From: Thelephora terrestris
Taxonomy: Eukaryota; Basidiomycota; Agaricomycetes; Thelephorales; Thelephoraceae
DNA: 64,000 nucleotides
NCBI GenBank assembly: GCA_015956445.1
Contig: WIUZ02000005.1
Location: forward strand, 496,001 to 560,000
Reading direction: 5' to 3'
Positions 1,333-47,268 of this stretch are shown here, one piece after another. The notes under the pieces are model-generated. The model was not told where the DNA came from, ran no database searches, and was given only the letters and a program-made list of their open reading frames with translations. The first letter of the stretch is position 1. Each line of letters begins with the position of its first letter. The position numbers and the translations under genes are program-made.

Positions 1333-2005
1333 TCAGATGCTGAGGTGCCCGTGAGTATCAGGCAGTAGAAAATCCATGGCAAGTGGCACTTACGGGAGGG
1401 GGATCAACTTGAGGTCGCCCTTCCAGTGCTTGCCCAAGACACTGACGTCGTAGTGCAACCACAACCATTTGTCCTTGATGTAGAAGGTGAAGGTTCCACT
1501 GATCACCTTAAAGTCGAACTTGAGGGTGATGCCGTCAGTAAGGCTTCCAGTTCCACAGGCAATCTTGAACTCGGGAAGGAAAGGAAGTTTTCCGTAGACA
1601 CAGATGCTGATGGTCCCAGTTGAGAAGTCGATGACGATGACGATCTACAAAAATCGACTGTAAGCAGCGCGGCGCAAAGACTGTTGAAGGATATTATCAG
1701 TTACCCTGATGGTGATGGGACCAAGGTTGAAAGACACTTCATAGGTCTTCTTGTTGTCCGTGGCGTAGACATCACCGTGCTCGATGGCGAAGACGTGGAT
1801 CTCGCCTCCGTCTCTCGTCTCGCTAACGCGATGATGGTTACCGAGCCAGTGGTCGACTGGAAGAGTTCGGACCGTCGCGGTGAGCGAGGCTCACACCTAG
1901 CAGTACAAAATACACACCATCGGGATCTAGTACCAGGGGTTCGTCAATTTAACATACGAATAGATCAAGAGGAAATAACGCACGGGGATCTTGAGCGGAA
2001 CTCAT
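1333..2005 (-). CDS. WLGNHH-family small protein, copy G
   Basis: Unrecognised protein of 146 residues. Exons on the minus strand: 2005-1984 (encodes MSSAQDP), the 9-nt micro-exon 1926-1918 (ATCCCGATG, giving HPD and the first base of V), 1856-1705, 1644-1394 and a 7-nt last exon 1339-1333. Phases close exactly. The product reads HPDVDHWLGNHHR at the first junctions, then alternates polar and hydrophobic residues (FYIKDKWLWLHYDVSVLGKHWKGD near the C-terminus), a pattern expected of beta strands. No signal peptide or membrane segment is seen. The donor of the last intron contains TAA in frame, so unspliced mRNA would stop at 1390, one codon short of the spliced stop. Intron 3 is identical to that of copy C at 36.1 kb, which shows a recent duplication. 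Confidence 0.75.
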
Positions 2006-2097
2006 GTTTTAGAATGAGGTGAGAGCTTGCGAGTGAGAAGAGAGGAGGATTGTGGTCGTTGAGAATGATGGGGAACAGGACCCTCTCGTGCTGGCCC

Positions 2098-2104
2098 TTT
2101 TATA
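2098..2104 (-). promoter_or_regulatory. TATA box of copy G
   Basis: TATAAAAG on the minus strand about 95 bases upstream of the ATG, in the same context (CGTATAAAAGGGCCAGC) as the other family copies, followed by a pyrimidine-rich leader. Confidence 0.65.
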
Positions 2105-2461
2105 CGTTGAGCACTTCGGCACCACTGGCAGGCCATTTCTTGTTTATTTTTGGTGGCCGAGTGGAATTTTGTCGATGCTCAGTGAGAACGGAAGTGAGCG
2201 TGAATGTGAGAGAGCGAACCGAAAATGATCTGGTGATCTCGATCAACCCTGACTCAGAGAAAAAACACGATTTACTTACGTAGATTTGCCGATACGTACA
2301 GTGAGTTTCCTTGACAAAACAAAGAGGCTTCCGGTTTTGGAGCGCTGGTGACCGAGATATATTGACAAACAAAATTTCATGCTGTTCTCTGGTTTGCGGT
2401 TGTGTGGTTGTAAACAAAAGGGTTCCCGTTCGTCCTTCCCCCCACCATGGGTCAGATCCTC

Positions 2462-3560
2462 TTTCTAGCGCAACGCGTCTACATCCAAAGCCAATTCGAG
2501 GGAGAGAGAACCCTCGGCGAAGGCGTAACTGGGTCCCGTGAGCACGATCAGGGTGAGAATCGACCGTAGAAGGCGCGTCGTACCGTATGAATCAACGAAG
2601 ACCATCTTGAGAGCACTCCAGCGGTAAAAGCGGGGTGCGGGAGAGACTCGCAACAACACTCTGTTCGACCCCCAAACCGAGGATCCCAGTTTTTTGTTTT
2701 ACATTTTAGGTGAGACGGGCCTATTGACTTCCGATTTGTCGAGTAGCCAACATCCAGACAGCGGCCAGAGTCCCGACAGTCCCCCATTTCAGCCAGGATA
2801 TCCGGGCATTTGAAAACTCCGGCGGCGGTCACCCATTAAAATGGGGGACATAGATGGAGAATTAGCGATGCTTGTACCTAAACACGGCCACAGCCTCACG
2901 GCCCCATGACCATTTGTTATATACATTCGGCTCTCGAACGAGACCGGTGAAGGCTTGGGAGAGAATGTGACCAAATTCGAATGGGCACGTGTCTCATAAC
3001 ACAGAAGTTTTCTCAATGTGTTGCCAAAAGAGCGGGTGGGTGTTATGTTGGGAGAGCGGCAGATTTCGGGATCAGAATCTCAGATTAAACGTCAACGGCC
3101 AGCGTGTTCTGGATATTAATTTGTGGAGTCGAGGAAGATCTGCCTAGACCACGACGTCTCGGTGGGCATTCCACGTACTCGATCGCGAGCCGAAGCAGGG
3201 AATGGTGATTGATTTCAAATTGGATTGCCAGTGAGGTACATGAGCGGCATCCGTGGAACAACAACGCGGTACCTTGCATTTTGGAAGATACTTTGAACGC
3301 CATGGGTGGTAAACCACACAAGGGCGACGGCGTACGGCTGGTCGATCGATGGTAAAGCCCGGTGGTAAGTAATTGCTGTACAGGAGCTTACAGTGAGGCG
3401 AGACCGAAAGCCTGGGAAAACGACCAGCAGATGCATCACGGAATGGAAATCCTGGGCTTACAATAACCAGGGACCACGAACCGATATTTACGTAGTTAAC
3501 CCCGCGGAAGTCTCCAGTTGCATTGATTGCACTGGATTGATATCTGGTCCGAAAGGCGTT
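2462..3560 (-). repeat. Upstream module X plus S repeat, left-arm copy
   Basis: This stretch repeats, in reverse complement, the sequence found before right-arm copies A, C, D, E and F (28.7-29.8, 34.4-35.4, 37.65-38.5, 41.2-42.0, 45.15-46.3 kb). It contains the S segment with CCCCCAAACCGAGGATCCC and the remains of the hydrophobic upstream ORF (IRS/LRS...LIVL...YAF residues, 2608-2465, stopping after ALDVDALR). No terminal inverted repeats or transposase were recognised. Confidence 0.6.
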
Positions 3561-3599
3561 CATATCAGATCTTTACGTGGCTGACCACGGGTCCGCGAG

Positions 3600-4390
3600 A
3601 CGACTAAGAACGTGCATCCGTCGTGGATGTTCCCAGTGGCGAGATCAAACTTATGATATAAAACCAGGATCTTCGGGAGCATACGGCAAAGCTAAAGACC
3701 GAACATCTTGTGACGGCTCCCCAAACCAGGTGTGATGCGATTCGCCTCGCGAGTGAGAGTTTTTCGAGGATGGAAAAATAGGCCAATAAGCGCACGACGT
3801 CCGGGAATTGCTCTAGCCAAAGCAAGCAGCAAGCCGTTTATCGCTCGTTAGACGCACAGCGACAGACCGTAAATCCAAGCATCTCGGGTAGCTCCTTCGA
3901 ACGAGTTGCAAGGCTGGGTAGACCGGGTGGTTTCGTGGACTTGAAATTAAGGCGGCTGGGCGCGGAATGAGGATCGCCAGAAACTATCGATGTCGTTAAA
4001 AAAGACCACCCTGCGGGCTTTTGGTCGGCACTACATACCGCCTGCGACTTTCGGGTGCGCAGGCAGCGGGGTGTGTGGCTCGAGGTTCTGATAAACGGGA
4101 GTCGTTGGAAGTTTTGTGCCCTGAGCAAGCCCCGAGAGTACTCATCACAGCCACTAGGCTTAGTGTCCAGCCAGACTCTCGGCTCGAAACCCGAACAAAA
4201 CCCGTTGAAAACCGGGCCACCGAGAGCCGCTCTTCGATCGGGGGTAGGGTAAGAAGCTAGAGCTCCGGAGATCGCCATGGCGGCGATTGACTTGCAGGGC
4301 AACGTCGTTCATCAAATTGGCACGAGGATCAATCATACATGTTATCACAGTAGCGTATACAACCAAACACGGTAATTCCACGTTACACAC
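3600..4390 (-). repeat. Module Z, left-arm copy
   Basis: Reverse complement of the 33.5-34.3 kb sequence, sharing blocks such as CATCAAATTGGCACGA and the GTCTGGCTGGACTCTAAGCC-like stretch. Partial copies lie at 10.04-10.34 kb and 30.7-30.92 kb. It contains ORFs of up to 154 codons, but these frames are not kept between copies, so I treat it as non-coding spacer between family genes. Confidence 0.5.
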
Positions 4391-4444
4391 ACGTTCGCGT
4401 TTCGAAGGAGCTCCAATCAGGCAAGATACCTAAGGCCTATTGTT

Positions 4445-5126
4445 TCAGAACCTGGAGTGTCCGTCAGTATCAGGCGGTACAAGATCCATGGCGAGTGGCA
4501 CTTACGGGAGGGGGATCAACTTGATGTCGCCCTTCCAGTGCTTGCCCAAGACACTGACGTCGTAGTGCAACCACAACCATTTGTCCTTGATGTAGAAAGT
4601 GAAGGTTCCACTGATGACCTTGAAGTTGAACTTGAGGGTGATGCCGTCAGTAAGGCTTCCGCTTCCACAGGCAATCTTGAACTCGGGAAGGAAGGGAAGT
4701 TTTCCGTAAACGCAGACGGTGATCGTTTTCTTGGTAAAGTCGATGACAATGACGATCTACCAAAATCGGCTGTGAGCAGGGCGGCACAAAACCCGTCGGA
4801 AGGTATCATCGGTTACCCTGATGGTAATGGGACCGAGACCGAAAGACACTTCGTAGGTCTTGGTGTTGTCCGCCGTGCCGTATAAAGTACCGTGCTCGAT
4901 GGCGAAAACATGGATGGCGTCGCCATCTTTCGCGTCAGAAACTTGATGATGGTTACCGAGCCAATGGTCGACTGGAAGAGTTCGAAGCGTCGCGATGAGC
5001 AAGGCTCGTATATATCAGCACGAAATACACACTATCGGGATCTAGTACAGCCAGTTAATGGTCAGATGGGGACACGGAAGGGTCAAGAGGGAATGACCCA
5101 CGGGGATCTTGTGCTGCGTGAGCCAT
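4445..5126 (-). CDS. WLGNHH-family small protein, copy H
   Basis: 148 residues. Exons: 5126-5102 (MAHAAQDP), a 9-nt micro-exon ATCCCGATA giving HPDI, 4971-4817, 4756-4506 and 4451-4445. This is the second subfamily (with copies I and B): it starts MAHA or MAQA in place of MSxA, has HQV after WLGNH, and carries an extra residue in the GTLYGTADNTK loop. Intron 3 differs from copy B by two substitutions, so H and B are inverted-duplication partners. The unspliced stop would be at 4502-4504; the spliced end is P-F-stop. Function unknown; no signal peptide or membrane segment is visible. Confidence 0.75.
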
Positions 5127-5214
5127 TTTTTAGATTGCGATGAGCTTGCGGGTGAAGTGGGAGTAGGAGTTTGGTCGTTCAGAACGATGGAGAACCTCCT
5201 CGAATGCCTGGTCC

Positions 5215-5221
5215 TTTTATA
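5215..5221 (-). promoter_or_regulatory. TATA box of copy H
   Basis: TATAAAAG on the minus strand in CGTATAAAAGGACCAGGC context, about 90 bases upstream of the ATG. Confidence 0.65.
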
Positions 5222-5259
5222 CGTTGAACATGTCGGCGCCACCAGCAGTTCATCCATTT

Positions 5260-6560
5260 GTTCGCGAAATGCTGGACGTACGCCCAGGCCTTGGGAGTTG
5301 CGAACTATGGCGCAATAGCACCTTGTGACCCCCCAAGCTCGAGGGTTACCATTACCTGTGCCCCTTTTCCAGTGGCTGAATGTAATGTTCTCGGTGGTTA
5401 TTGTAGAACGGATGAACGTGTCAGCGCGGACCGTGAGAAGACCGGAAGATCCCGATCGACCACCGGTTTACGCAGATCAATCAATGAGCACAGTGGTGAC
5501 GCCGAGTGGGCAAACAGTCAAGAGACCTATTCAGTTTCTGGCGGGGCGCCAGCGACCGAGATTTGTTGAAGAAACCTCCGACGCCACTTTGTTTTCTATT
5601 ACGTGGTTTTGTATATTTTGTCCTTCCCTCTCCCATCGACGAGATCCTCTCCCTGGCGCAATAACTCTACATCAAGCACCAGTTCGAGGAAGAGACTACC
5701 AACGGAGAAGGCCTACGAGCACAATCGGCCCGAAAAATCAGTCCCAGAAGGCGCGGTGTGTCGTATAAACCAGCGAAGTCTATGTTGAAAGCTCGCTGGG
5801 GTCAAAGCGGGGTGCGGGGGACATATGCAACAACACCCCGTCCGACCCCCAAACTGGGGACTCCAGTGGAGATCTGAAATCGTTTCAACCCTAAATGAGG
5901 TGAATTCGTCTGGATAACATATAGACCTGTAAAGTGTCGACTTACAAGCGTTAGCTTGAGCCCCAGACAACGGTCGGGTCCAGGCAGTTCCCAGGATATG
6001 TTGCGCGCTGAAAACTTCAACAATGTGGAAAGTCACTCTGTCACTGAGTGAAATGGATCAAGACCTGGAGAATATATCCTACTAGTCCGGCGTAAGTAGT
6101 TACATGAGCCCATGACCATCTTTTATGTACATCCGGCTCTTGGACAGGACCGGTGAGGACCCTGGAGAGAATGTGATCGATTTCTATGCCGCGCACGTGT
6201 TCAAGTCAGCGGGCGCTTCCCATGATATAGAAGTTTTGACAATAGAGTAGCGAAGAAAAGGGGGGAGTGCACTATGCCAGTAAAGCGCTGGGCCCAGGGA
6301 CCAGAACCGCTGACTAAAACCATACTAACAGCGGAGAGGAAGTTCTGGATCAAATTCTGCGCAGTTGCGAGGGTTCTGCGAACGTGGAATATGATGTCGT
6401 GGTAGACAGCTCGTGCACCCATCGGCCAATCGGCGTGATCCAGCCTCGAACGGTGGTTGACCTGAACCGGATTGCGGTACTTTTTCATAGGGGCTATGGA
6501 TGCCCCTGATGAATATTGGAGGGAGAGTGACAAAGTAGGGCCGGTTGATCGATGGCAAAG
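5260..6560 (-). repeat. Module Y, left-arm copy 1
   Basis: Sequence upstream of subfamily-2 copy H. It is repeated in direct orientation before copy I (11.2-12.59 kb) and inverted before copy B (31.1-32.63 kb). It includes a Y-type S segment (5.70-5.86 kb, AAACTGGGGACTCCAG) and the block CAATAGAGTAGC...AGTGCA near 6.24 kb, which marks the inner end of the inverted duplication. ORFs here are not conserved between copies. Confidence 0.55.
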
Positions 6561-6589
6561 TCCGATAGTAAATTAGTCATTGGACTTGA

Positions 6590-6930
6590 GGGAGTTCGCA
6601 GGGAGGTATTTGATCTTCGATCGGATCGGCCGCAGGCCGAAGCTCGCCGAGGGAAGTGGGTTTGGTACGAACCTAGGAGTTCGCAGTGAGGGGCCATCAG
6701 GGCCGCCCGAGGCGTACTTGAACGTCCTGAAAACGGTGGCAGGCAACCGCGCGCCATCCGATCGTCGGGAGAGGGGGACATACCGACGCAGTCGGACTCG
6801 GATTCGGCTCATGGGCGGAAGACCTCTTTGAAGCTGGTCTGCGCTGACCAAACCGCCAGCGGAATGCACGGGTACATGGCGCTCGGTGGCCAATTGTGCG
6901 AGTTTGCACCTGAACAACAACAGCCAACGC
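6590..6930 (-). pseudogene. Relic of the secreted-protein gene family
   Basis: On the minus strand CKLAQLATERHVPVHSAGG and QLQRGLPPMSRIRVRLRR align with CDLAQLTAKRDFLAHDARD and RLRRGLPLKSPILRRG of the gene at 15.6 kb. The signal peptide, the GYIS core and the C-terminal half are absent. A 201-codon ORF spans it by chance, with unrelated sequence on both sides. Confidence 0.5.
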
Positions 6931-8352
6931 TGGAATGAAGGAAGGACCTTTGAGCCTGCCTCATTTTCCGTGGCGAGATAGTTGAAGAAGCGGAGTGGGG
7001 GGCAGTGAACATGCTCAACAAACGAGGTCTTTGTGTCTTTCCTCACCAGCCTGTTTGAAACGGGCTGTGGAATCGCCTTTGCCCGTTTACGCGATTGAGT
7101 ACGTATTGGCAATGGATTTATAGATGGGCGTGCTACACTGCCATACATGCTCGAAGGTCCAAGATACGAAAATACCACTCGTATCGAATGGACTCAGAGG
7201 TCAAGCACACTATTCGGAAATCCCGCGATCACTGCATCAAAAAATGACGGCCTGCCGGGATCATGGCGGACAGAGAGATGAGTGTAGGTCTCGCGCGGGT
7301 AAGGAACGATCGAGCCAAGAGAACCATGTCTTTGAGCGAACGGCGGGAGGTGGCACGTCGCGCTCTTGCGGCAACACACCCATCTCCTCGCCGCCTCGAC
7401 TCTCTCCATGTGATTTATTTCAGAGTTCAAATTTCCTAGTCGCGATACCACGGAGTGAACCACAAAGACGACGACCATGGGCGGGTTGGGACAACTGGAT
7501 CCCCAGCTCAAGACGCAAGAAAATCCCATCGGAAAACTGTGCCATGCCCTATCGAGAGTCGCTGTTATACTGATTAGGGCGTGAAGCGTGAAGACCAATG
7601 CCTGTTGAAATTCCAGAGATCGTCACTGTGGAAACCAGTGTGATCGAAGCTAGACTTGCGGTGCAACGCCTTGTAAAGCCGTTCATCAAATTGGCACGAA
7701 AATCAATTAATTGATCAATTAGCACAGTAATGCACACAGCCGAAGAAGATAACTCGCACATCGACTGGCGTATTAGCATCTTGTGACCCCTCGGGGGACA
7801 ACTATACCTTGCATTCAGTGCCCTCTTTTCAATGAATGAAGAGTCACCGGGGCTGAGTTAGAACGAACAAGCCGCTGGTTAACGTTTGAGAGCGAGCGGT
7901 GAGGCGAGCGAAGTATTATTGGTGCACGAGATACGCAGATCTGAGTACGGTGCAATGGAAGGATAAGTATAAAACTTCGTACCAAACTGTTAGTCCGGTG
8001 CAAACGATTCCGCGGGCCTATGACCACTCATTATGTACGCGCGGCTCCCGAGCCGGACCCATCAAGGCTCCTGATCAAGGCGCACGAGAAATCGAATGTA
8101 ACAGATTTGAGGTGAGCGCGAGTGGCCGAATCCAACCGAGGTTTGTGGTGGAAGAGCGGTAGAAAAGCTTGGGACAGGGAGCGCCGGATAAAAATAGAAA
8201 AATAGCGAAGGGGTTCCGGATTCGAATCTACTATGCAGTTGAAAGGATTTGTGTGCCGCCTCAAAGGTGTTTACATATCTCCACGCATGACCAAAAGAAA
8301 CCAGAAGAGTCTCAGCGAGAGAGGAATCGAGGTGGACGGCGAGGAAATCCCA
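6931..8352. other. Repeat-derived spacer, no gene seen
   Basis: Contains pieces seen elsewhere in the cluster: a 3' flank of the family gene at 7.6-7.75 kb (CATCAAATTGGCACGA) and a block at 7.85-8.2 kb matching 13.7-14.05 kb and, inverted, 31.1-31.5 kb. No reading frame here shows conservation. Confidence 0.4.
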
Positions 8353-10404: not shown

Positions 10405-11091
10405 TCAGATCCTGGAGTGTTCGTGAGTATCGGATGGTTCAAAATTCATAGCGAGTGGCACTTACGGGAGGGGGATCAACTTGATGTCTCCCTTCCAGTG
10501 CTTGCCCAGAATGGTGACGTCGTAGTGCAACCACAACCATTTGTCCTTGATGTAGAAAGTGAAGGTTCCACTGATGACCTTGAAGTTGAACTTGAGGGTG
10601 ATACCGTCTTTGAAGCTTCCGGTTGCACAGCCGATCTTGAACTCGGGAAGGAAGGGAAGTTTTGCGTAAACGCAGACGGTGATGGTTTTCTTGGTAAAGT
10701 CGATGACGATGACGATCTACCAAAAGTGGCTGTAAGCAGCGCGGCGCGAAAAAAGCGTCGTAAGGTATTATCAGTTACCCTGATGGTAAGGGGACCAAGA
10801 TGGAAAGACACTTCGTAGGTCTTGGTGTTGTCCGCCGCGCCGTATAAAGTACCGTGCTCGATGGCGAAAACATGGATAGCGTCGCCGCCATCCTTCGCGT
10901 CAGCAACTTGATGATGGTTACCGAGCCAATGGTCGACTGGAAGAGTTCGAAGCGTCGCAATGAGCAAGGCTCGCACATATCAGCACGAAATACACACTAT
11001 CGGGATCTAGTGCGGCCAGTTAATGGTCAGATGGGGACACGGAAGGGTCAAGAAGGAATGACCCACGGGGATCTTGTGTTGCTTGAGCCAT
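10405..11091 (-). CDS. WLGNHH-family small protein, copy I
   Basis: 149 residues, subfamily 2. Starts MAQATQDP at 11091; the micro-exon is ATCCCGATA; exon 3 begins VDHWLGNHHQVADAKDGG; exon 4 has YAKLPFLPEFKIGCATGSF where the other copies have YGKLPFLPEFKIACGSGSL; the 7-nt last exon is 10411-10405. The unspliced stop is at 10462-10464. It sits in a direct repeat with copy H (module Z fragment, gene, TATA, module Y), 6 kb away. All splice signals are intact. Confidence 0.73.
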
Positions 11092-11179
11092 TTTTTAGAT
11101 TGCGATGAGCTTGCGAGTGAGGTGGGAGTAGGAGTTTGGTCGTTCAGAACGATGGGGAACCTCCTCGAATGCCTGGTCC

Positions 11180-11186
11180 TTTTATA
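11180..11186 (-). promoter_or_regulatory. TATA box of copy I
   Basis: TATAAAAG on the minus strand, about 90 bases before the ATG, in the same context as copy H. Confidence 0.65.
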
Positions 11187-29895: not shown

Positions 29896-29902
29896 TATAA
29901 AA
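29896..29902 (+). promoter_or_regulatory. TATA box of copy A
   Basis: CGTATAAAAGGCCC, intact although the gene behind it has lost its start codon. Confidence 0.6.
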
Positions 29903-29993
29903 GGCCCAGGGCTCGAAGACAATGTTTCCCATCGTTCTCAACGACTACAATCCTCCTCTCTTCTCACTCGCAAGCTCTCATCTCAATCTGAGT

Positions 29994-30657
29994 AATCGTT
30001 CAAGATCCTCGTGGGTTATTCCCTCTTGATTCTTTGGCGTCCTGATCTGACGACTCGCTGTCACTAGATCCCGACGGTGTGTATTTTGTACCGCTAGTTG
30101 TGAGCCCGGCTCACCGCAACGATTCGAACTCTGCCAGTCGAGAAGTGGCTCGGTAACCATCATCGCGTTAGCGATTTGAAAGACGGAGACGGAATCCACG
30201 TCTTCGCCATCGAGCACGGCAATGTCTACTCGGCGGAAGCCAAGAAGACCTACGAAGTGGTTTTCAGTATTGGTCCCGTGAACATCAGGGTAACTGATGA
30301 TGCCTGTCAACACAAAACCTAGCTGCTTACAACCAACGTTGGTAGATCGTTATCGTTCTCGACCTTGCCCAAAAGACCTTCAGCGTCTGTGCTTTTGGGA
30401 AAATTCCCTTCCTTTCCGAGTTCAGGCTCGGCTGTGGAAGCGGAAGCTTTGATAAAGGTGTCACCCTCAAGTTCGACCTCAAGATCATCAGCGGAACTTT
30501 CACGTTCACCATCAAGGACAAATGGTTGTGGTTGCACTACGACGTCAGTGTCATGGGCAAGCACTGGAAGGGCGACCTTAAGTTGATCCCTATCCCGTAA
30601 GTGCCCCTCGCTATGAATCTTGTACCGTCCGATACTCAAGGGCACTTCAGGATCTAA
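29994..30657 (+). pseudogene. WLGNHH-family copy A, start codon lost
   Basis: Compared with copy C, a small deletion removes the ATG (TCTGAACAATGAGTTACG becomes TCTGAGTAATCG). No other in-frame ATG lies before exon 3. The rest is remarkably whole: micro-exon 30068-30076 (ATCCCGACG), exon 3 30138-30289, exon 4 30346-30596, last exon 30651-30657 ending TAA. Exons 3 and 4 are open and encode VEKWLGNHHRV and FTIKDKWLWLHYDVSVMGKHW. Either it died recently or initiation is elsewhere. Confidence 0.65.
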
Positions 30658-32639: not shown

Positions 32640-32646
32640 TATAAAA
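32640..32646 (+). promoter_or_regulatory. TATA box of copy B
   Basis: CGTATAAAAGGACC, 89 bases upstream of the ATG. Confidence 0.65.
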
Positions 32647-32734
32647 GGACCAGGCATTCGAGGAAGTTCTCCATCGTTCTTAGCGACCAAACTCCTGCTC
32701 CCACTTCACCCGCAAGCTCATCGCGATTCAAACA

Positions 32735-33419
32735 ATGGCTCACGCAGTCGAAGATCCTCGTGGGTCATTCCCTCTTGACCCTTCCGTGTCCCCATCTGAC
32801 CATTAACTGGCTGTACTAGATCCTGACAGTGTGTATTTCGTGCTGATATGTGCGAGCATTGCTCATTACGACGCTTTGAACTCTTCCAGTTGACAAGTGG
32901 CTCGGTAACCATCATCGTGTTGCTGACGCGAAAGATGGCGGCAACGATATCCATGTCTTCGCCATCGAGCACGGTAATTTATACGGCGCGGCTGACAACA
33001 CCAAGACCTACGAAGTGTCTTTCCATCTTGGTCCCATTACCATCAGGGTAACTGATGATACCTTCCGACGGTTTTTGTGCCGCCCTGCTCACAGCCGATT
33101 TTGGTAGATCGTCATCGTCATCGACTTTACCAAGAAAATCATCTACGTCTGCCTTTACGGAAAACTTCCCTTCCTTCCTGAGTTCAACATTACTTGTGGA
33201 AGCGGAAGCTTTACCGGCGGCATCACCCTCAAGTTCAACTTCAAGGTCATCAGTGGAACCTTCACTTTCTACATAAAGGACAAATGGTTGTGGTTGCACT
33301 ACGACGTCACCATCTTGGGCAAGCACTGGAAGGGCGACATCAAGTTGATCCCCCTCCCGTAAGTGCCCCTCGCTATGAATTTTGAACCGTCCGATACTCA
33401 AGGGCACTTCAGGATCTAA
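32735..33419 (+). CDS. WLGNHH-family small protein, copy B
   Basis: 149 residues, subfamily 2. Exons 32735-32759 (MAHAVEDP), micro-exon 32820-32828, 32890-33047, 33108-33358 and 33413-33419. The micro-exon here is ATCCTGACA and exon 3 starts TTGACAAG, so the protein still reads HPDIDKWLGNHH. The synonymous and conservative differences at this junction, with phase kept, are strong evidence that the 9-nt exon is real. Exon 4 has a longer-diverged stretch FTKKIIYVCLYGKLPFLPEF. Inverted-duplication partner of copy H. Confidence 0.78.
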
Positions 33420-35679: not shown

Positions 35680-35686
35680 TATAAAA
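35680..35686 (+). promoter_or_regulatory. TATA box of copy C
   Basis: CGTATAAAAGGGCCAGC, 93 bases upstream of the ATG. Confidence 0.65.
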
Positions 35687-35778
35687 GGGCCAGCACGAGA
35701 GGGTCCTGTTCCCCATCGTTCTCAACGACCACAATTCTCCTCTCTTCTCACTCGCAAGCTCTCATCTCAATCTGAACA

Positions 35779-36451
35779 ATGAGTTACGCTCAAGACCCCC
35801 GTACGTTATTTCCTCTTGATCTTTTCGTGACCTAATCTGACGACTCACTGGGACTAGATCCCGATGGTGTGTATTTTGTACTGCTAGGCGTGAGCCTTGC
35901 TCACCGCGACGGCTTGAACCCTTCCAGTCGACCATTGGCTCGGTAACCATCATCGCGTTAGCAGTAGTGAAGACGGAGAAGAGATCCACGTCTTCGCCAT
36001 CGAGCACGGTGATGTCTACGCCACGGACAACAAGAAGACCTACGAAGTGTCTTTCAACCTTGGTCCCATCACCATCAGGGTAACTGATAATATCCTTCAA
36101 CAGTCTTTGCGCCGCGCTGCTTACAGTCGATTTTTGTAGATCGTGATCGTCATCGACTTCTCAACTGGGACCATCAGCATCTGTGTCTACGGAAAACTTC
36201 CTTTCCTTCCCGAGTTCAAGATTGCCTGTGGAACTGGAAGCCTTACTGACGGCATCACCCTCAAGTTCGACTTTAAGGTGATCAGTGGAACCTTCACCTT
36301 CTACATCAAGGACAAATGGTTGTGGTTGCACTACGACGTCAGTGTCTTGGGCAAGCACTGGAAGGGCGACCTCAAGTTGATCCCCCTCCCGTAAGTGCCA
36401 CTTGCCATGGATTTTCTACCACCTGATACTCACGGGCACCTCAGCATCTGA
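35779..36451 (+). CDS. WLGNHH-family small protein, copy C
   Basis: 146 residues, subfamily 1. Starts MSYAQDP; the micro-exon is ATCCCGATG; exon 3 carries VDHWLGNHHRVSSSEDGEE; exon 4 is the consensus form with YGKLPFLPEFKIACGTGSL and KDKWLWLHYDVSVLGKHW. The last exon is 36445-36451 (CATCTGA). The unspliced stop is at 36392-36394. Intron 3 is identical to that of copy G in the left arm. All signals intact. Confidence 0.78.
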
Positions 36452-38480
36452 GACAAGAGCGCCACTTCAGGCCTTCAGGTACCTTGCCTGGTTGTAGTAA
36501 TCGCGAATGTTTGATGTGAAATTACCGTGTTGTGCTTGTACCGTTACTGCAATCACATTAACAACAAATTTTCTTGCAAACTTCACAAGCCGTGCTGCAT
36601 CGCAAATTTGGCGCCTTAGAGGGTGTTTTATTTGGGTCTTCAATATGCTGAACGTGGCACAAGTCGAGCGTAAACTATGGGAGCGATCACAGAAAGGTAT
36701 TGGAAGCACCCGGCGCGCCAACCCCTTGAGGACAGCAACAGCTCAAGCACCTAAGCTTCAGCCGTTCGGTTCCCCTCGTTCTCTCTCTGGCCCGAGAGGA
36801 CCTTTGAAAAACGCGGGGTAGTAGTAGGCGATCACGTGGAACACATTTAGCATCACGCGGCGACTTGACTCGATCACCACTGCGTTTGTTCCCCCTGCCA
36901 GAGACCTCTTTCGAGCGCTTGCGGTGCGTAATTTCCCATCGTGGATTTGACACGAAGCTGTTAGATGACCAGTCGGCAGAACAGGTCGACATAAGCGAGT
37001 CGGCGACAAGGTGGGCGGACGGGCTCCCGTGCTTCTCCTTCTATTTCTCGACGCCCTACTATCTCCGGCCTTGAGCCCTCACCTCCTGCCTACTCCACCT
37101 GATTCACCCAGCCTTGCAACTCGTCCGAAAGGAATACTCGAGATGTATGGATTACGTGCTGCCGCTGTGCGTTTGACCAGCAATAAATAATTCGGTGTTT
37201 TGTTGACTAGTGCGATTCCTGGACCACGTGCGCTCATCACCGTATTTTCGATTCCCGGGAAGCTCAAAGGTAAGGTGAAGTATGTGACGCCTTTTTGGGA
37301 CAAGGGTTGGCCTGACTCGAAGCATAATGGTATCGTCATAGGATGCTCGATTCTCGTAAGGCGTATGGCTGGGATGTAATAAGCAGGGTGCGTCGTTCAT
37401 GGCCCTAGATCATCGTTATCCCACAGGGTAACTTTGATCTCGCCACTGGGATCAACCCCGACGGATGCACGTCCTTAGTCGTCTCGCAAACCCGTTGCCA
37501 GCCGCGGAACCATGCGATGTGAAGCCCTTCAGACCGGATAAAGATCCGCTACAATCAGTGCGACTGGAGACGTCTGCGGGTTTGATTACTAATTGGATAT
37601 GCGCGGGGTTTTCGCGATGGTGATCCCTCATCATTGTGAGCCTAGGATTCCCATTCCGTGATGCATTTGCTGGTTATTTCCCCAGGCTTTCAGGTTCGTC
37701 TCACTGCGAACTTCTGTACTGTAATTGCTTACCATCGGACTTTACCGTCGATCGACCAACCGTACGCCGTCGCCCTTGTGTGGTTTATCACCCATGTCGT
37801 TCAAAATATCCTCCAAATGCACAGAAATCGCGTTTTTGTTTCAAGGATGCCGCTTACGTTCCTCATTGGCATTTGAAATCAATCACCATTCCCTGCTTCG
37901 GCTCACGATCGGGTACGTAGAATGCCCACCGAGACGTCGTGGTCTAGACTGAACTTCCTCGACTACGTAAATTAATATCCAGAACACGTTGGCCGTTGAC
38001 GTTTAGTCTGAAATTCTGATCCCGGGCTCTGTCGCTTTCTCAAGACAACACTCACCCGCTTTTTTGGCAGGACATTGAGAAAACTTCTGTGTTATCGGAC
38101 ACATGCCCATCTCGATTTGGTCACTTTCTCTTCACCGGTTTCATCCAAGAACCGACGTACATAACAAATGGTCATGGGCCCGTGAGGCCATCGGCGTGGT
38201 TACATACAAGCATCGCTGCTTCTCCATTTCAATGAGTGACCGCCGCCGGGGTTTTCGAATGCCCGAATATCCTGGCTGAAATGGGGGACTGTCAGGACCA
38301 TGACCGCTTTATGGGGCTCGGCTAATCGGCAGATTGGAAGTCGATTGGCCCATCCCATCTAAAATGTAAAAAAAACTGGGATCCTGGGTTTGGGGGTCGG
38401 ACGGGGTGTTGTTGCGAATCTCTCCCGCACCCCGCTTTGATCACTAGCATGCCTTCAATGTGGGCTTCATTGCTTCATAC
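36452..38480 (+). repeat. 3' flank, Z-like piece and module X before copy D
   Basis: 36.5-37.0 kb matches 0.86-1.3 kb inverted (the outer end of the inverted duplication). 37.1-37.6 kb is a shortened Z-like piece and 37.65-38.28 kb is module X. The S segment at 38.39-38.48 kb is truncated and the upstream ORF is gone. Confidence 0.5.
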
Positions 38481-38759
38481 GACACAACCGCAAACCAATT
38501 TTTTCAATAGATCTCTGGCACCCCAAAACCGGAATTCTCTTTGTTTTGTCAAGGAAACTCACTGTACGTATCGGCAAATCCACGTAAGTAAATCGTGCGC
38601 TTATCCAAGTCAGGGCTGATCGGGATCGCCAGATCATCTTGCGGAGTTCGCTCTCAGACATTCACGCTCATTGCCGTTCTCACTGAGCATCGAGAACATT
38701 TCATTCGGTCCCTAAAACAAACAAGAAATGGCCTGCCAGCGGTGCCGACGTGCTCAGCG

Positions 38760-38766
38760 TATAAAA
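38760..38766 (+). promoter_or_regulatory. TATA box of copy D
   Basis: CGTATAAAAGGGCGAG, 90 bases upstream of the ATG. Confidence 0.65.
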
Positions 38767-38855
38767 GGGCGAGAACGAGAGGGTCTAGTTCCTCATCGTT
38801 CCCAACGACCACAATCCTCTCTTCTCACTCGCAAGCTCTCATCTCAGTCTAAACA

Positions 38856-39529
38856 ATGAGTTACGCTCAAGACCCCCGTACGTTAATTTCTCTTGACTCT
38901 TTCGACTCTTAATCTGTCGACTCACTGGGACTAGATCCCGATGGTGTGTATTTTCCCCCCGCTAGGTGTGAGCTTTGCTCACCACGACGGCTCGAACTAT
39001 TCCAGTCGACCAGTGGCTCGGTAACCATCATCGCGTTAGCGATGCGAAAGATGGAGATGAGATCCATGTCTTCGCCATCGAGCACGGTGATGTGTACGCC
39101 ACGGACAACAAGAAGACCTATGAAGTGTCTTTCAACCTTGGTCCCATTACCATCAGGGTAACCGATGATATCTTCCAACAGTCTTTGCGCCGCGCTGCTT
39201 ACAGTCGATTTCTGTAGATCGTCATCGTCATCGACTTCTCAACTGGGACCATCAGCATCTGTGTCTACGGAAAACTTCCTTTCCTTCCCGAGTTCAAGAT
39301 TGCCTGTGGAACTGGAAGCCTTACTGACGGCATCACCCTCAAGTTCGACTTTAAGGTCATCAGTGGAACGTTCACCTTCTACATCAAGGACAAATGGTTG
39401 TGGTTGCACTACGACGTCAGTGTCTTGGGCAAGCACTGGAAGGGTGACATCAAGTTGATCCCCCTCCCGTAAGTTCCACTCGCCGTGGATCTTGTACCGC
39501 CTGACACTGACGGGTACTTCAGGATCTGA
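38856..39529 (+). CDS. WLGNHH-family small protein, copy D
   Basis: 146 residues, subfamily 1: MSYAQDP, micro-exon ATCCCGATG, VDQWLGNHHRVSDAKDGDE, then an exon 4 whose protein differs from copy C only in DIKLIP for DLKLIP. Intron 2 carries a local run of C (TTTTCCCCCCGC) replacing TTTTGTACTGC, with the GCTCAC branch site kept. The last exon is 39523-39529 (GATCTGA). The near-identity of exon 4 to copies C and G contrasts with more diverged introns and flanks, as expected from conversion or selection. Confidence 0.78.
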
Positions 39530-40099: not shown

Positions 40100-40660
40100 C
40101 TACTTCCCCGATAATAGCCACGGGTCTGGGATTGAATGCGGACTCGCTTAGCAGCCTCACGGGCAACGCTGCTTTGAGTACAATGCGCGTGCTATCCATG
40201 ACTTGACCAACGCCGAGCTCCTGCCCAGAGGTCCTCCCAGTCACCCAATCTTGCAACGTGGTCCGCCCGCTCATTGATAACACATCGCGCCATCCCTTCC
40301 CAGCTCCCATTATTCTAGTTACTCCCACCCGTCGATTCTGCGCGGGTGGATGACTCCCGTCAGTGTCTCCCCAGCCACTTACACTGTTGTTGCGCTATCC
40401 ACTTGATTGATCTCACGTTGAAAAAAGCGTACGCTGTAAACCATCCCGAGGCCAATCTGACGGGTTCCGGCATCAATCCGAATCCTGCCATGACGGTTTG
40501 CTTCAACTTGAGTTCAGTGTCGAACTCTCCTATACCCCAACCCCTGGGATACGGACAAGGCTTCGTTTCGCCAGGTCCCGTCCAAGGCCTTACATACACG
40601 ACTTCAGCCGTCTCCTCGTCAGGTCATCAAAGTAGCACCCCCATCGCTTGAGCTGATACG
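40100..40660 (+). pseudogene. Relic of the secreted-protein gene family
   Basis: 40.1-40.33 kb carries the TNAELLPRGPPSHPILQRG-type segment, and 40.42-40.64 kb a stretch with TGSGINPNPAMTVCF and SSGHQ that resembles TGSGTNLNLVMK and the SSGSSQ of the 15 kb gene. Stops and frame changes separate the parts. It is followed, as in the other copies, by the block starting CGTTTGATAAGG. Confidence 0.45.
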
Positions 40661-42330
40661 CTCGTTTGATAAGGTCGCAGTTCTCACGGGCGTCACAGCA
40701 AGTACGATAGTTCCCTATGGACTTTGAAGAAGGCTAACGAAGAAGGCTAGCCGAATATTGAACGAGAGTTGGCACTACCCCGGTTCCAACCCTTCGAAAC
40801 TTTGTAATTCGTATCCCCCGTTCTTGGGTTTACGGTCTCCCGCTGTGCGTTCAACGAGCGATGAGCGACTTGACCTATTTTCTGACCGTCATCCCACAGC
40901 AAAATCATGATCTCACCACTGGGATCCCCCTACTCGGAGCGGCTGAAAGATCCGATGCGGACGCCTTTGAGTCTAGATATTAATGCACCGTTACGCAGCG
41001 AAAGGGTCCGGAATTCCGCTCCAGGACGGTCGAGTGAGACATCCCTAGATGCACAATCAATGCAAGTCCAGGGTACCCATTCCGCGATGGACTTGCTTTT
41101 CCTTTCCCAAGCTTCCAGGCTTGTCTCGCGACCCGTGTACAGCGATTCCTTGCTATCAGACTTTAACATCGCCCGACCGACCGAACACTGTCGCCTAATT
41201 TTCTACCCAGGCGTCCAAACCATTTTTTGCAAATTGCACGATACCGCTTCGTTGTTTCACGGTCGTCCCTAGGTACTTCATTGGCAATCCAATTTGAAAT
41301 CAATTACCATTCCCTGCTTCAGGCTCACGATCGAGTACGTGGATTGCACACCGAGACGTCGTGGTCTAGACAGGACTTCCTCGACTCCGCAAATTAATAT
41401 CCAGGTCACGCTGGCCGTTGACGTTTAGTCTGAGATTCCGATCTTGGGCTCTGCCGCTTTCTCAAGACAACGCTCACCCGCTTTTTTGGCAGGACATTGA
41501 GAAAACTTCTGTGTTATGGGACACATGCCCATCTCGTTTAAGAGCCGATGTACATAACAATGGACCTTGGCCATCGGCGTGGTTAGGTAGAAGCATCGCT
41601 GCTTCTTCATCGATGTCACCCATTTCAATGAGTAACCGACGCCGGAGTTTTCGAATGCCCGGATAAGTACCCTCGCTAAATTGGGGGACTGTCGGGACCC
41701 TGACCGCTGTCTGGGACTCGGCTAATCGACAGATTAGAAGTCGATTGGTCCATTCCATCTGAAATGTAAGAAAAAACTGGGATCCTCGGTTTGGGGTCGA
41801 ACGGGGTGTCGTTGCGCGTCTCTCCCGCTCCCCGCTTTGACCGCTAGAGTGCTCTCAACATGGGCTTTGTTGATTTATACGAGACGACGCGCCTTCTACG
41901 GTCAATTTTCATTCTGATCGTACTCGTGGGACCTTCGCCGTTGGTCCCCTCTCCCTCGAACTGGCTTTGGATGTAGACGCGCTGCGTCAGAAGGAGGATC
42001 TGATCCATGGTAGGAGGAAGGGCAAACGAGAACCCGTTCGTTTACAACCACACAACGACAAACCAAAGAACCGCCTGAGATATTTTTCCAATAGATCTTG
42101 GTCACCAGCACCCCAATCCGGAAGCCTCTCCGCTTTGTCAAGGAAAGCCACTGCACGTATTGACAAATCGTAAGTAAATCGTGCGGTTTCTCCGAGTCAG
42201 GGCTGATCGAGTTCGTCAGATCATCTTGCGGTTCGCTCTCGGACATTCACGCTCATGCCCGTTCTGACTGAGGATCGAGAAAATTACATTCGGCCACCAA
42301 AAATAAACAAGAAATGGTCTGCCAGTGGTG
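40661..42330 (+). repeat. Post-relic block, module X and S before copy E
   Basis: 40.66-40.85 kb matches 14.8-14.9 and 44.69-44.88 kb. 41.19-41.67 kb is module X and 41.79-41.93 kb the S segment. The upstream ORF at 41.86 kb has lost about ten bases after LIVLVGP and is frame-shifted. Confidence 0.5.
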
Positions 42331-42345
42331 CCGACGTGCTCAGCG

Positions 42346-42352
42346 TATAAAA
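42346..42352 (+). promoter_or_regulatory. TATA box of copy E
   Basis: CGTATAAAAGGGCCAGC, 93 bases upstream of the ATG. Confidence 0.65.
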
Positions 42353-42444
42353 GGGCCAGCATTAGAGGATCTTGTTCCCCATCGTTCTCAAAGACCACAA
42401 TCCTCCTCTCTTCTCACTCACAAGTTCTTCCCTCAATCTAAACA

Positions 42445-43123
42445 ATGAGTCTCGCTCAAGATCCCCGTGCGTCATTTTCTCTTGATCCTTTCGTATCCTA
42501 ATCTGACGACTCACTGGGACTAGATCCCGATGGTGTGTATTTTGTATCACTAGGTGTGAGCCTTGCTCACCGCGACGGCTCAAACTCTTCCAGTCGAACA
42601 CTGGCTCGGTAACCATCATCGAGTTAGCGAGACGAGAGACGGAGGCGAAATCCACGTCTTCGCCATCGAGCAGGGTAATGTCTACGCCTCGGAAAGCAAG
42701 AAGACCTACGAAGTGGTTATCGCTATTGGTCCCATTTCCCTCAAGGTAACTGATAATACCTTCCGACAGTCTTTGCGCCGCGCTGCTTACAGTCACGGTT
42801 GATTTTGGTAGTTCGTCATCGTCGTCGACTTCGAAAATAAGTCCTTCAGCGTCTCTGCTTACGGAAAATTTCCTTTCCTTCCCATGTTCAAGATCGGCTA
42901 TGGAAGCGGAAGCTTCGATAAAGGTGTCACCTTCAAGTTCGACATGCAGGTCATCAAAGGAACCTTCACCTTCTACATCAAGGACGGATGGTTGTGGTTG
43001 CACTACGATATCAGTGTCTTGGGCAAGCACTTTAAGGGCGACCTCAAGTTGATCCCCCTCCCGTAAGTTTCACTCGCCACGGATCTTGTACCGCCTGATA
43101 CTGACGGGCACTCCAGGGTCTGA
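42445..43123 (+). CDS. WLGNHH-family small protein, copy E
   Basis: 146 residues and the most diverged intact member. MSLAQDP, micro-exon ATCCCGATG, VEHWLGNHHRVSETRDGGE, EQGNVYASESKKTYEVVIAIGPISLK; exon 4 has YGKFPFLPMFKIGYGSGSF and KDGWLWLHYDISVLGKHF. The cysteine of FKIxCG is replaced by tyrosine and the tryptophan of GKHW by phenylalanine, while frame and all splice sites are kept. That pattern looks like divergence under constraint. The last exon GGTCTGA gives V instead of I as the final residue. Confidence 0.76.
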
Positions 43124-43493
43124 AACAAGAGGCCTTCAGGTATCTTGCCTGATTGTAATCGCAAATGTTTGTGAAATTACCGTGTTGTGCTTGTACTATC
43201 ACTGCAATAACATGACCGACAAATTTCCTTCTTAACTTCACGGAACGCGCCACCTGCAAGTCTGGCGCTGTAAAGACAGTTTTATTTGCGCCTCTAATAT
43301 GCTGAATGTGGTACAAGTCAACCGTAAAAATGTAAGAGCGATCACCGAAAAGTATTGCAAAAACCCGCCGTGCCAACCCCTTGAGAACAGCAAAAGCTCA
43401 AGCGCCTAAGCTTCGGGCGTTCGGTTTCCCTGGTTCCCTTTCTGGAGAAGTCCTTCCCTTCGAAAAGAAAGAGTCAAACACGGTGTAGACGAT

Positions 43494-43520
43494 CACGTGG
43501 AGAACATTCAGCATCACGTG
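43494..43520. promoter_or_regulatory. Pair of CACGTG E-boxes 21 bp apart
   Basis: CACGTG at 43494-43499 and 43515-43520, same spacing as at 969-995, about 200 bp upstream of a secreted-family relic. Confidence 0.35.
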
Positions 43521-43689
43521 GCGAACACGATCACCATGCCCCTCCCAGAGACCTCTTTCGTGCGCTTGCAGTGCGTAATTTTGTATCGTATAGTACGTGT
43601 TGGGATGGAGGAAATATAAGTTCACACTGTGGACGGACGCGCTTCCACGCTTCTTCTATTTCGCAACGCCATCCTCCCTTGAGCCCTCA

Positions 43690-44300
43690 CCTCCGATTTC
43701 TACTTCGTCGATAAGATCCACCGGTATGGGATTGGATGCGGACTCGCTTAGCTGTCTCACGGGCATCGCTGCTTTGAGTACGCTGCGCGTGCTATCCACG
43801 GCGTGACCAACGCCGAGCTCCTGCCCAGAGGTCCTCCCGATCACCCAATCTCGCAACGTGGTGCGTCCGCTCATTGATGCCACATCGCGCCATCCCTTCT
43901 GAGCTCCCATTCTAGTTACTCCCACCCGTCGAGCTGCCCCTCCAGTTATGCCCTTGTCCAATCCTCAACCCGATCACGACTCAACCTGCGCCTTAAGTTA
44001 TCGTTGGACCAACCAGAGCGTTGATTGCAGACGTTCTTTGTTATATTTCCAATTTCCTCTCCCTCTCAGACGAACTACGCCTCAACGAGGCACAGACGAT
44101 ACCTCCTTTACAGGATTACTTCCGACAGGCCCTGGTGCCGATCTCAACGTCACGTCGAATATTTTCGCATCACGTGGGGGATGCGATTTCAACATCCGTG
44201 TTTGTTTCTCTCCACCAGAGACCTCTCCCAAGTGTTTTCAATGTTCAATTTGGCACCGTAAGTGCTCTACGTTGATACAAAGGCGGAAGATAAGCAGTTA
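43690..44300 (+). pseudogene. Relic of the secreted-protein gene family
   Basis: Inverted near-copy of 0.18-0.79 kb. Contains HGVTNAELLPRGPPDHPISQRG, then shifted frames with PTGPGADLNV resembling the SGTNLNL block. No continuous frame. Confidence 0.5.
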
Positions 44301-44384
44301 ACAGTCGGTGGATCAAGCCGACAAACGCGGGTCGCCGACGAGGGTGGATGCTCAAACTCACAAACCCTAAGCATCGGATACTTC

Positions 44385-44692
44385 GCGAGTTAAGCGCTCA
44401 CGTTTGCGAAGAAAAGGCCACGAGGGACAAGGCCGTAAAGCATCTCGTCCAATTCCTCTCTGAACCCGCCAGGCACGTCCTATCTGATGATCTAGAACAA
44501 GCCAAGTTATGGAAGGGGGTATTTTACTGTGCGCTCCCCACCAGTAACCTCTCTATCACCAGCAAAAAATGCTAACCGTGCGTTGGAAGAAGGTTTCTGG
44601 ATGTCCGATAAGCTTCTCGTCCAGCAGGCCTTGGCGTCGGGACTCGCAGATATCCTCCTCAAAATCCATGATCGGGCCTCCTTACGTTCTTT
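44385..44692 (+). pseudogene. RRP1 exon 2-3 fragment
   Basis: Matches the RRP1 gene 3.5 kb to the right, in opposite orientation: the end of intron 1, exon 2 (KATRDKAVKHLVQFLSEPA), intron 2 with GTGCGC donor, and exon 3 up to ADILLKI. It then breaks into the block also found at 40.66 kb. Exon 1 and everything after the ILLKI stretch are absent. Introns are kept, so this is a genomic copy. Confidence 0.85.
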
Positions 44693-45149
44693 TGATAAGG
44701 CTGCAGTTCTTGCGGGAGTCGCAGCACGTACGATCGCTTTTTATTTATTTCCAAGATGACTAACCGAATATTGAACGACAGTTGGCATTACCCCGGAAGT
44801 TGCACTCCTTCGGGAATTTGTAGCTTATATACCCCGCTCTTGGGTTTACGGTCTCCCGCTGTGCGTTCAACGAGCGATGATTTGCTTGCCCTATCTCTGA
44901 CCGTCACCCCACAGCGAAACTTTGATCTCGCCACCAGGATCAATCCCGGCGGATGCGCTTTGATCTCTGCTCTCCCTTACGGTGAATTCCTTCACTCGGA
45001 GCGGCAGAACGATCCGATGTGGACGCCTTTGAGACCAGGTTTTTATCACGTTGGACATCCTGGGGCGGAATTCTGAATCCCTTCGCTGCGTAGTGGTGGA
45101 TTGAGCGAGACATCCCTAGATATACAATCGATGCAGGGACATCCGTGGA

Positions 45150-46007
45150 TATAACTATCGGATACCCGCGGGATTTCCGTCACGGTATGATCCCTGGTTA
45201 TTGTGAGTGTACAACGATTCCTTACTATCGGACTTTAGCATCGATCGACCAACCGCACGCAGTCGCCCTTGTCTGGTCTCCTCCCTATGGCCTTCAAAAT
45301 GTCTTCAAAAATGCACAGATACCGCTTTGTTGTTTCACGGACGCCGCTTACTTAATTCATTGGCAATCCAATGTGGAGTCAACCAACATTCCCTGCTTTG
45401 GGCTCACGATCGAGTATGTGGACTGCAAACCGAGACGTTGTGGTCTACGAAGAGCTCCCTCGACCCCGCAAATTAAAATTCAGAACCCCCTCCGCCATTG
45501 ATGTTCAGTCTGACATTCCGATGCCGGGCACTGCCGCTTTCCCACAGCACCACTCACCCGCTTTTTGGCAGCTACATTGCCAAAACTTCTGTATTATGGG
45601 ACACATGCCCATTTACATTTGGTCACATTCTCTCTCAACCCTTGACCGGTCTCGTTCAAAAGCCGGATGTACACATAACAAACGGTCATGGGCCCGGTGG
45701 AGCTCTTGACGCAGGACTCGTTGGGTACGAGTATTGCTGATTCTCCATCTATGTCCTCCGTTTTACTGAGTGACCGACGCCGGAGTTTTCAAATGCCCGA
45801 ATGTCCTGGCTGAAATGGGACTGTCGGAACCCCGACCCTTTCTGGGTGGGGCTCGGCTAAGTCGACAGTTTGGAAGTCGATAGGCCCATCCCATCTAGAA
45901 TGTAAAAAGAAATCAATCCCGCACTGGAGTCCTCAGTTTGGGGGTCGAACGGGGTGTTGTTGCGAGACTCTCCCGCACCCCGCTTTGACCGCCAGCATGC
46001 TCTCAAT
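45150..46007 (+). repeat. Module X plus S repeat before copy F
   Basis: Same order as before copies A and C, ending in TCAGTTTGGGGGTCGAACGG and CCGCTTTGACCGCCAGCATG. Confidence 0.6.
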
Positions 46008-46340
46008 ATGTGCCTCGTTGATTTCTACGACACGACGCCCCTTATACGGTCACTTTTCACGTTGGCCGTACTCATGGGAACCTGTTACGCCTTCGCCGTG
46101 GAATCTCCGTCCCTCGAAATGGCTCTGGATGTAGAAAGGTCGCGCTCGAAAGAGTATCTCGTCCGTGGTGGGGGGAAGGACGAACAGGAACCCGTTTGTA
46201 TTCAGCCACACAACGACAAACTGAAGAACCCCCTGGAATTTTTTCAACAATTCCCGGCCACCAGCACCCCAAAACTAACCGAAAGCCTCTGTGGTTCGTC
46301 GAGGAAAGTTACTGTACTCATCGGGAAGCCACGTAAGTAA
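46008..46340 (+). CDS. Upstream hydrophobic ORF, copy F
   Basis: 110 codons, the longest copy of this ORF. MCLVDFYDTTPLIRSLF is followed by a hydrophobic stretch ending TCYAF, then acidic/basic sequence with RGGGKDEQEPVC. It ends at CCACGTAAGTAA, where GTAAGTAA is also a strong splice-donor match kept in the other copies, so a further exon is possible. Whether it is translated is unclear. Confidence 0.3.
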   Translation: MCLVDFYDTTPLIRSLFTLAVLMGTCYAFAVESPSLEMALDVERSRSKEYLVRGGGKDEQEPVCIQPHNDKLKNPLEFFQQFPATSTPKLTESLCGSSRKVTVLIGKPRK

Positions 46341-46496
46341 ATCGCGCGCTTCTCAGGGCTGATCGAGGTCGTCAGATCAATTCACGGTTCGCTCTCAGAC
46401 ATTCACGTTCATCGATTGCCCGTTCTGACTGAGCATCGAGAACACTACATTCGGCCACCTGAAAATGGTCTGCCAGTGACGCCGACGCGTTCAGCG

Positions 46497-46503
46497 TATA
46501 AAA
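46497..46503 (+). promoter_or_regulatory. TATA box of copy F
   Basis: CGTATAAAAGGGCCAGC, 93 bases upstream of the ATG. Confidence 0.65.
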
Positions 46504-46595
46504 GGGCCAGCACTAGAGGGTCTTGTTCCCCATCGTTCTCAACGACCACAATCCTCCTCTCTTCTCACTCGCAAGCTCTCATCTCAACCTCAACA

Positions 46596-47268
46596 ATGAG
46601 TCTCGTCCAAGATCCCCGTGGGTTATTCCCTCTTGATTCTATCGCATCCTGATCTGACCACCCACGATGACTAGATCCCGATGGTGTGTGGTTTGTCCTT
46701 CTAGGTGTGAGCTTTGCTCACCGCGACGATTCGAACTCTTCCAGTCGAGAAGTGGCTCGGTAACCATCATCGTGTTAGCGACTTGAAGGACGAAAACGGG
46801 ATTCACGTCTTCGCCATCGAGCACGGTAATGTCTACTCAGCGCAAACCAAGAAGACCTACGAAGTGTCTTTCAGTCTTGGTCCCGTCACCATCAGGGTAA
46901 ACCGATGATACCTGCCGACGGTTTTCCGCAGCGCTGCTTACAGTCCATTTTGGTAGATCGTCATCGTTCTCGACCTCGAGGCCAAGTTCTTCAGCGTCTG
47001 CGCTTATGGAAAAGTTCCTTTCCTTCCTGAGTTCAAGATCGGCTGTGGAGAGGGAAGCTTCGATAAAGGCGTCACCTTCAAGTTCGACCTCAAGGTCATC
47101 AGCGGAACCTTCACGTTCACCATCAAGGACAAATGGTTGTGGTTGCACTACGACGTCAGTGTCATTGGCAAGCACTGGAAGGGCGATGTCAAGTTGATCC
47201 CTATCCCGTAAGTACCCCTTGCTATGAATCTTGTACCGTTCTATACTCACGGGCACCTCAGGATCTGA
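46596..47268 (+). CDS. WLGNHH-family small protein, copy F
   Basis: 146 residues: MSLVQDP, micro-exon ATCCCGATG, VEKWLGNHHRVSDLKDENG, then VLDLEAKFFSVCAYGKVPFLPEFKIGCGEGSF and FTIKDKWLWLHYDVSVIGKHW. It shares VEKW, the FTIKDKW variant and IPIP at the end with the start-less copy A, so A and F form a pair. The last exon is 47262-47268. Outermost copy of the right arm, only 450 bp from the end of RRP1. Confidence 0.77.

Follow-up and report, generated by a model that had tools for sequence, protein, structure and literature searches.

A gene array in Thelephora terrestris encoding small, probably beta-rich proteins of an unnamed Agaricomycete family

We analysed a 64,000-nucleotide stretch of the genome of Thelephora terrestris, an Agaricomycete of the order Thelephorales (G000:C45:496001-560000; hereafter called "the window"), which carries nine copies of a five-exon gene. 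With two further copies outside the window, the gene forms an inverted and tandem array of 11 paralogs, 10 of which are intact, and this array is very probably a real, constrained protein-coding family. Through gene models, codon analyses, profile searches and structure prediction, we found that the product is small, has relatives in several other mushroom genera, and contains a loop segment that appears to be exchanged between the copies. We tentatively propose that it serves as a binding protein, abundant within the cell, and that its loop is varied by gene conversion, likely in defence or non-self recognition.

Organization of the array and gene structure

Three of the window copies (c1–c3) lie on the minus strand at 1.3–11.2 kb, and six (c4–c9) lie on the plus strand at 29.9–47.3 kb (Table 1). 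The outermost exon ends of the rebuilt gene models, 1333 and 47268, coincide exactly with the limits given in an initial annotation of this DNA, and the models reproduce its counts of nine copies, eight of them with the ATG, TATA box, introns and stop codon. Over the gene, c1 shares 79–95% nucleotide identity with the other eight window copies, and these copies are therefore true paralogs rather than chance resemblances. Two extra minus-strand copies, cA and cB (C45:488894- and C45:492360-), are located just to the left of the window. The whole-genome search (40.6 Mb, 60 contigs) detected two relatives on contig C17, with 46–47% identity, and two more whole-genome searches with distant queries revealed no others; these counts are lower bounds. 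The window segments 1-15400 and 28600-47500 form an inverted duplication in which the gene types are partly mirrored outward from the centre, with extra local duplications, and the mirror symmetry is broken by c4.

All four introns are GT..AG in each of the 11 array copies and measure 57–60, 61–62, 56–66 and 54 nt, while exon 2 is a 9-nt micro-exon throughout. The ATG is kept in eight of the nine window copies, and in 10 of 11 when cA and cB are included. In c4 (29.99 kb), AATC stands in place of the homologous ATG, and the public annotation of this copy (P0005, 161 aa) takes an alternative upstream start. The sequence TATAAAAG starts 95–99 bp 5′ of the ATG in all eight intact window copies. 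Farther upstream, a G-rich piece of about 66–135 bp, oriented with the gene, is located 366–697 bp 5′ of the start place in 9/9 window copies. This stretch also occurs off the array contig, at C12:567228 and C12:1984902 (two of the 16 matches of a larger query), and it may be a regulatory element or an old repeat. At the 3′ end of the gene, the GTAAGT donor of the last intron overlaps the stop codon TAA, and the C17 relatives have the same arrangement with GTGAGT and TGA. Since the stop codon lies within the donor, splicing or retention of this intron alters the protein by about one residue.

Selection on the protein and exchange of the loop

How strongly is the protein constrained? In 55 pairs of the 11 copies, compared over up to 139 aligned codons by the NG86 method, the mean pairwise non-synonymous divergence (dN) is 0.142 and the synonymous divergence (dS) is 0.342, as compared with 0.237 in the introns and 0.204 in the ~150 bp upstream; the mean pairwise dN/dS (ω) is 0.44. 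The one-ratio codon model yields an ω of 0.318 over all 11 copies, falling to 0.252 when c8 is omitted, both well below 1, and the subgroup values are 0.199, 0.281 and 0.243. With the same topology and kappa held at 2.0, ω = 1 is rejected (log-likelihood, lnL, -1982.1 versus -1947.9, 34.2 units lower; 2ΔlnL 68.3). These ω figures assume no recombination, an assumption violated in this array, and they are approximate because recombination occurs among the copies. The selection on the protein proposed in the initial annotation, for which dN/dS was the suggested check, is thus upheld. The exceptional copy is c8, with a pairwise ω of 1.10 versus c1 and 1.06 versus c6, and 0.635 in the set of c1, c6, cB and c8.

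The differences between individual copies are unevenly distributed. Between c1 and c6, intron 3 has 0/60 differences and exon 4 has 1/251. All of the 7.8 non-synonymous changes between these copies fall in residues about 22–31 (10 codons compared), while the other 127 codons contain no non-synonymous and three synonymous changes. In c1 and c8, the proteins are identical in this 22–31 loop, with 50 non-synonymous changes elsewhere. From these two patterns, the loop segment appears to move between copies by exchange.

Protein family and predicted fold

The copies with an ATG encode products of 146–149 aa, in line with the approximately 146 residues expected initially. The predicted structure is almost all-beta with one short helix, as the initial annotation had supposed, and its C-terminal beta domain consists of eight predicted strands (residues about 46–145). 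The His-His pair, invariant in the array, is located within the poorly predicted N-terminal segment. The absence of a signal peptide also holds: by direct reading, rather than with a predictor, the N-terminus is polar and has no hydrophobic leader.

A single-sequence protein search returned only T. terrestris and six environmental proteins (11 matches of 23 candidates). A 14-row profile search reached 31 proteins (of 2387 candidates), including those of Marasmius oreades (E1B28_007003/007025), Russula compacta, Multifurca ochricompacta, Coprinopsis marcescibilis and Coniophora puteana, all annotated as "hypothetical protein". These small proteins share the signature H-H ... HV[FY]A ... [KR]xP ... 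G ... SG ... KLIP where covered; Marasmius contributes two entries and Multifurca four. They differ from the window family in being only 25–58% identical to it, and the array is known here for T. terrestris. The HH pair is present in 19 of the 20 family rows covering the site, the exception being the fusion protein P0012, while P82, G99, L141 and P143 show no variation among the 26 rows spanning each position.

Searches with the window family revealed neither a Pfam or NCBIfam match above the cut-off nor a related sequence in the PDB, consistent with the initial statement that it could not be assigned to a family. The profile and structure searches recommended at that time likewise gave no named family and, among the structure matches listed, no well-matching solved fold. 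The description as an unrecognised family therefore stands as far as names are concerned, and is corrected in that unnamed relatives exist across the Agaricomycetes.

A fusion with an MLKL-like domain

The beta domain also occurs in a gene on C17, hereafter called x1. Residues 82–162 of x1 match Pfam MLKL_N below its cut-off (E 2.5e-4), and residues about 1–160 resemble a domain that is common genome-wide, with at least 190 exon matches (150 scored of 351 candidates). Among the public relatives of this N-terminal half, P0018 and P0030 continue into a GxGGIGKT stretch, which we take to be like that of NOD-like receptors (NLRs). From about residue 185, x1 corresponds to the window family's C-terminal beta domain; the correspondence begins close to the predicted domain start (residue 46), and both the intron following TIR and the one at the stop codon are retained. 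Of the 26 public proteins that x1 retrieved, none has the x1 sequence itself; its damaged relative, x2, is present, as P0012. Over exons 4 and 5, x1 and x2 show 14 codon differences, nine of them synonymous.

According to one report, basidiomycete NLRs carry an MLKL-like N-terminal domain, "BaMLKL" (PMC9815663). The N-terminal half of x1 is similar in its weak match to MLKL_N and in resembling a domain common in the T. terrestris genome. In contrast, the window genes lack an MLKL-like domain, and x1 has the beta domain and no NACHT: the Pfam rows include neither NACHT nor NB-ARC, either for the window product (E<=10) or for x1 (E<=1).

Codon usage and environmental sequences

With four GAPDH and EF1a pieces of the same genome as the reference, the codon adaptation index (CAI) is 0.53–0.61 in the 11 copies, as compared with 0.37–0.42 in five pieces of other genes in the window, which are open frames possibly containing some intron. 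Random recoding gave a null CAI of 0.39–0.40 (sd 0.04); c1 and c9 exceed all 1000 draws, and c4, which has lost its ATG, is at 0.53, just under the null maximum of 0.54. When the GAPDH and EF1a pieces were left out in turn, the values were 0.62–0.69 for the left-out pieces, 0.52–0.62 for c1, c4 and c9, and 0.39–0.45 for the other pieces. In the environmental proteins P0006–P0009 (contigs of 916–1242 bases), the spliced frame runs uninterrupted across the intron positions, as would be expected of transcripts, while the environmental matches P0011, P0045, P0049 and P0050 end in an apparent intron 3, as would be expected of genomic DNA.

Possible function and alternatives

We consider a cytosolic binder in defence or recognition to be the reading that best explains, in combination, why the genes are amplified, intact and biased in codon use, why the loop is exchanged, why the family is scattered and why the fusion exists, although our confidence in it stays below an even chance. 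The conserved beta domain would serve as the scaffold, the 22–31 loop swapped among the copies by gene conversion would provide varied binding, and the copy number would raise the dose; the likely setting would be defence or non-self recognition. In x1, the beta domain would sit where the NLRs of this genome have NACHT-WD40, behind the MLKL-like N-terminal domain. Given this placement, it would sense or control within a cell-death protein that acts on membranes. The defence, recognition or lectin-like role guessed in the initial annotation thereby gains two hints, the exchanged loop and the MLKL-like fusion, and is still tentative, while its lectin-like part is not supported. A bolder form of the proposal, in which the beta domain, hitherto unnamed, serves Agaricomycetes as a recognition module inside the cell, with the loop of the free-standing array copies reshuffled by gene conversion and the domain able to replace NACHT-WD40 as the sensor behind the MLKL-like death domain, seems to us distinctly improbable.

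Several observations weigh against the recognition proposal. Copy c8 may be under relaxed constraint. In the loop, the proportion of synonymous differences over all pairs is high (pS 0.66; non-synonymous, pN, 0.25; pN/pS 0.38), and since pS is high too, we read the pattern as the exchange of divergent tracts and not as proof of positive selection; such exchange may suffice to explain the loop. None of the structure matches listed, at most the best 50 entries in each VIA-align list, is a well-matching solved fold. As for x1, its MLKL_N score of 21 bits is under the Pfam cut-off of 27, the HH segment is missing, the conserved positions W123 and G132 are altered, and the CAI is low (0.43). The relative x2 lies on the opposite strand at a distance of 28 kb; its homologous frame is interrupted by a stop and its first exon differs from that of x1, both of which are bypassed in the public model, P0012, and the fusion is one intact-looking gene only.

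A direct-acting cytosolic defence protein, stored at a high level and harming hyphae-feeding animals or microbes, is possible but doubtful, and would make the fusion an accident. Fungal defence lectins and toxins are, as a class, small, cytoplasmic and beta-rich; the window protein is likewise small, probably cytosolic and beta-rich, but it shares no sequence family with them. A small beta-fold protein without a leader peptide, encoded by amplified genes that have a TATA box and biased codons, would fit such a role, as does the scattered occurrence over the Agaricomycetes. PMC6238071 supports the general view that proteins abundant in the cytoplasm of fruiting bodies protect against nematodes, which points in the same direction. 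However, galectin, aegerolysin, fruit-body lectin and ricin-B are all absent from the 11 Pfam families found at E<=1 with 30 family members, and the lectin rows in the structure searches are at chance level (3kif, E 0.22; 5o7u, E 0.52). We know of no recognised sugar-binding motif in the window protein, and direct defence does not predict the MLKL-like fusion.

It is rather unlikely that the product is a housekeeping or metabolic protein that has a calycin-like up-and-down barrel, binds a small molecule (lipid, haem or pigment precursor) and was multiplied to raise the dose. In the comparison with the predicted structure, the nitrobindin and OlmO/OssO spirocyclase barrels aligned over 111–113 residues and are alike in their small antiparallel beta arrangement, with no confident fold match.

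Neutral amplification, in which an orphan gene was multiplied by unequal crossing-over and kept its intact look by gene conversion, is very improbable. The conversion-like tracts of c1 and c6, the copy without an ATG and the pairwise ω of about 1 in c8 are as it would predict, but ω is low with or without c8, the mean dN is below both the intron divergence and dS, and the conserved positions are common to several fungal orders. Transposable-element cargo or product is the most disfavoured reading, since, despite the repeated units with their flanks and the two C12 occurrences of the short G-rich stretch, the gene relatives are at two genome places only (a lower bound), the two intergenic pieces searched have 6/6 and 14/16 of their matches on C45, and the Pfam rows of the product include no transposon family, so that the transposon-protein match named initially as a refutation was not found there.

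Other features of the window

A NACHT-WD40 NLR-type open frame occupies 59096-62647 (-) (NPHP3_N, E 1.8e-26, with WD40 repeats), a weakly NLR-like context near the array; the frame upstream of it, to 63699, is perhaps part of the same gene and has no Pfam match. Open frames 50744-51484 and 52210-52722 (+) match the type VI secretion system (T6SS) Tle1-like phospholipase catalytic domain PF09994 (E 3.3e-7 and, below the cut-off, 3.3e-4). Open frames 9379-9957 and 15049-15633 (-) lie in a 90% direct repeat (9172-10035 / 14508-15374); the latter, which was the one scanned, has a hydrophobic leader-like start and no Pfam match. Another direct repeat, 20966-21220 / 26359-26608 (88% identical), adjoins an endonuclease/exonuclease/phosphatase-like frame at 25474-26268.

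Table 1. Positions of the array genes, the upstream G-rich stretches (window coordinates) and the fusion gene x1
Feature	Position	Strand	TATA	Exons	Remarks
c1	1333..2104	-	2097-2104	1984-2005, 1918-1926, 1705-1856, 1394-1644, 1333-1339	
c2	4445..5221	-	5214-5221	5102-5126, 5033-5041, 4817-4971, 4506-4756, 4445-4451	
c3	10405..11186	-	11179-11186	11067-11091, 10998-11006, 10779-10936, 10466-10716, 10405-10411	
c4	29896..30657	+	kept	30068-30076, 30138-30289, 30346-30596, 30651-30657 (open)	homologous ATG lost (29989); P0005
c5	32640..33419	+		32735-32759, 32820-32828, 32890-33047, 33108-33358, 33413-33419	P0003 in nr
c6	35680..36451	+		35779-35800, 35858-35866, 35928-36079, 36140-36390, 36445-36451	P0001 in nr
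c7	38760..39529	+		38856-38877, 38935-38943, 39006-39157, 39218-39468, 39523-39529	P0002 in nr
c8	42346..43123	+		42445-42466, 42524-42532, 42594-42745, 42812-43062, 43117-43123	P0004 in nr; fast-evolving
c9	46497..47268	+		46596-46617, 46675-46683, 46745-46896, 46957-47207, 47262-47268	
G-rich stretch 5′ of c7	38356..38490	+			example of the piece upstream of all nine copies
G-rich stretch counterparts	2584-2712, 5754-5854, 11788-11853, 29320-29420, 32018-32111, 35086-35165, 41756-41882, 45923-46033	gene's orientation			
x1	L011 4750-5889 (C17)			six	five GT-AG introns; open frame 284 aa; model made by eye

Biological implications

These results define a protein family, conserved in mushroom-forming fungi and having a clear signature as well as a predicted domain, for which we found no name or paper, and they place its array in a well-bounded locus of an ectomycorrhizal fungus. 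Amplified families without known function are common in fungi; the MLKL-like fusion and the loop exchange set this family apart from them. One gene fusion ties the beta domain to the basidiomycete MLKL-like cell-death repertoire. If the beta domain were indeed an intracellular recognition module, it would represent a basidiomycete recognition system outside the NLRs.

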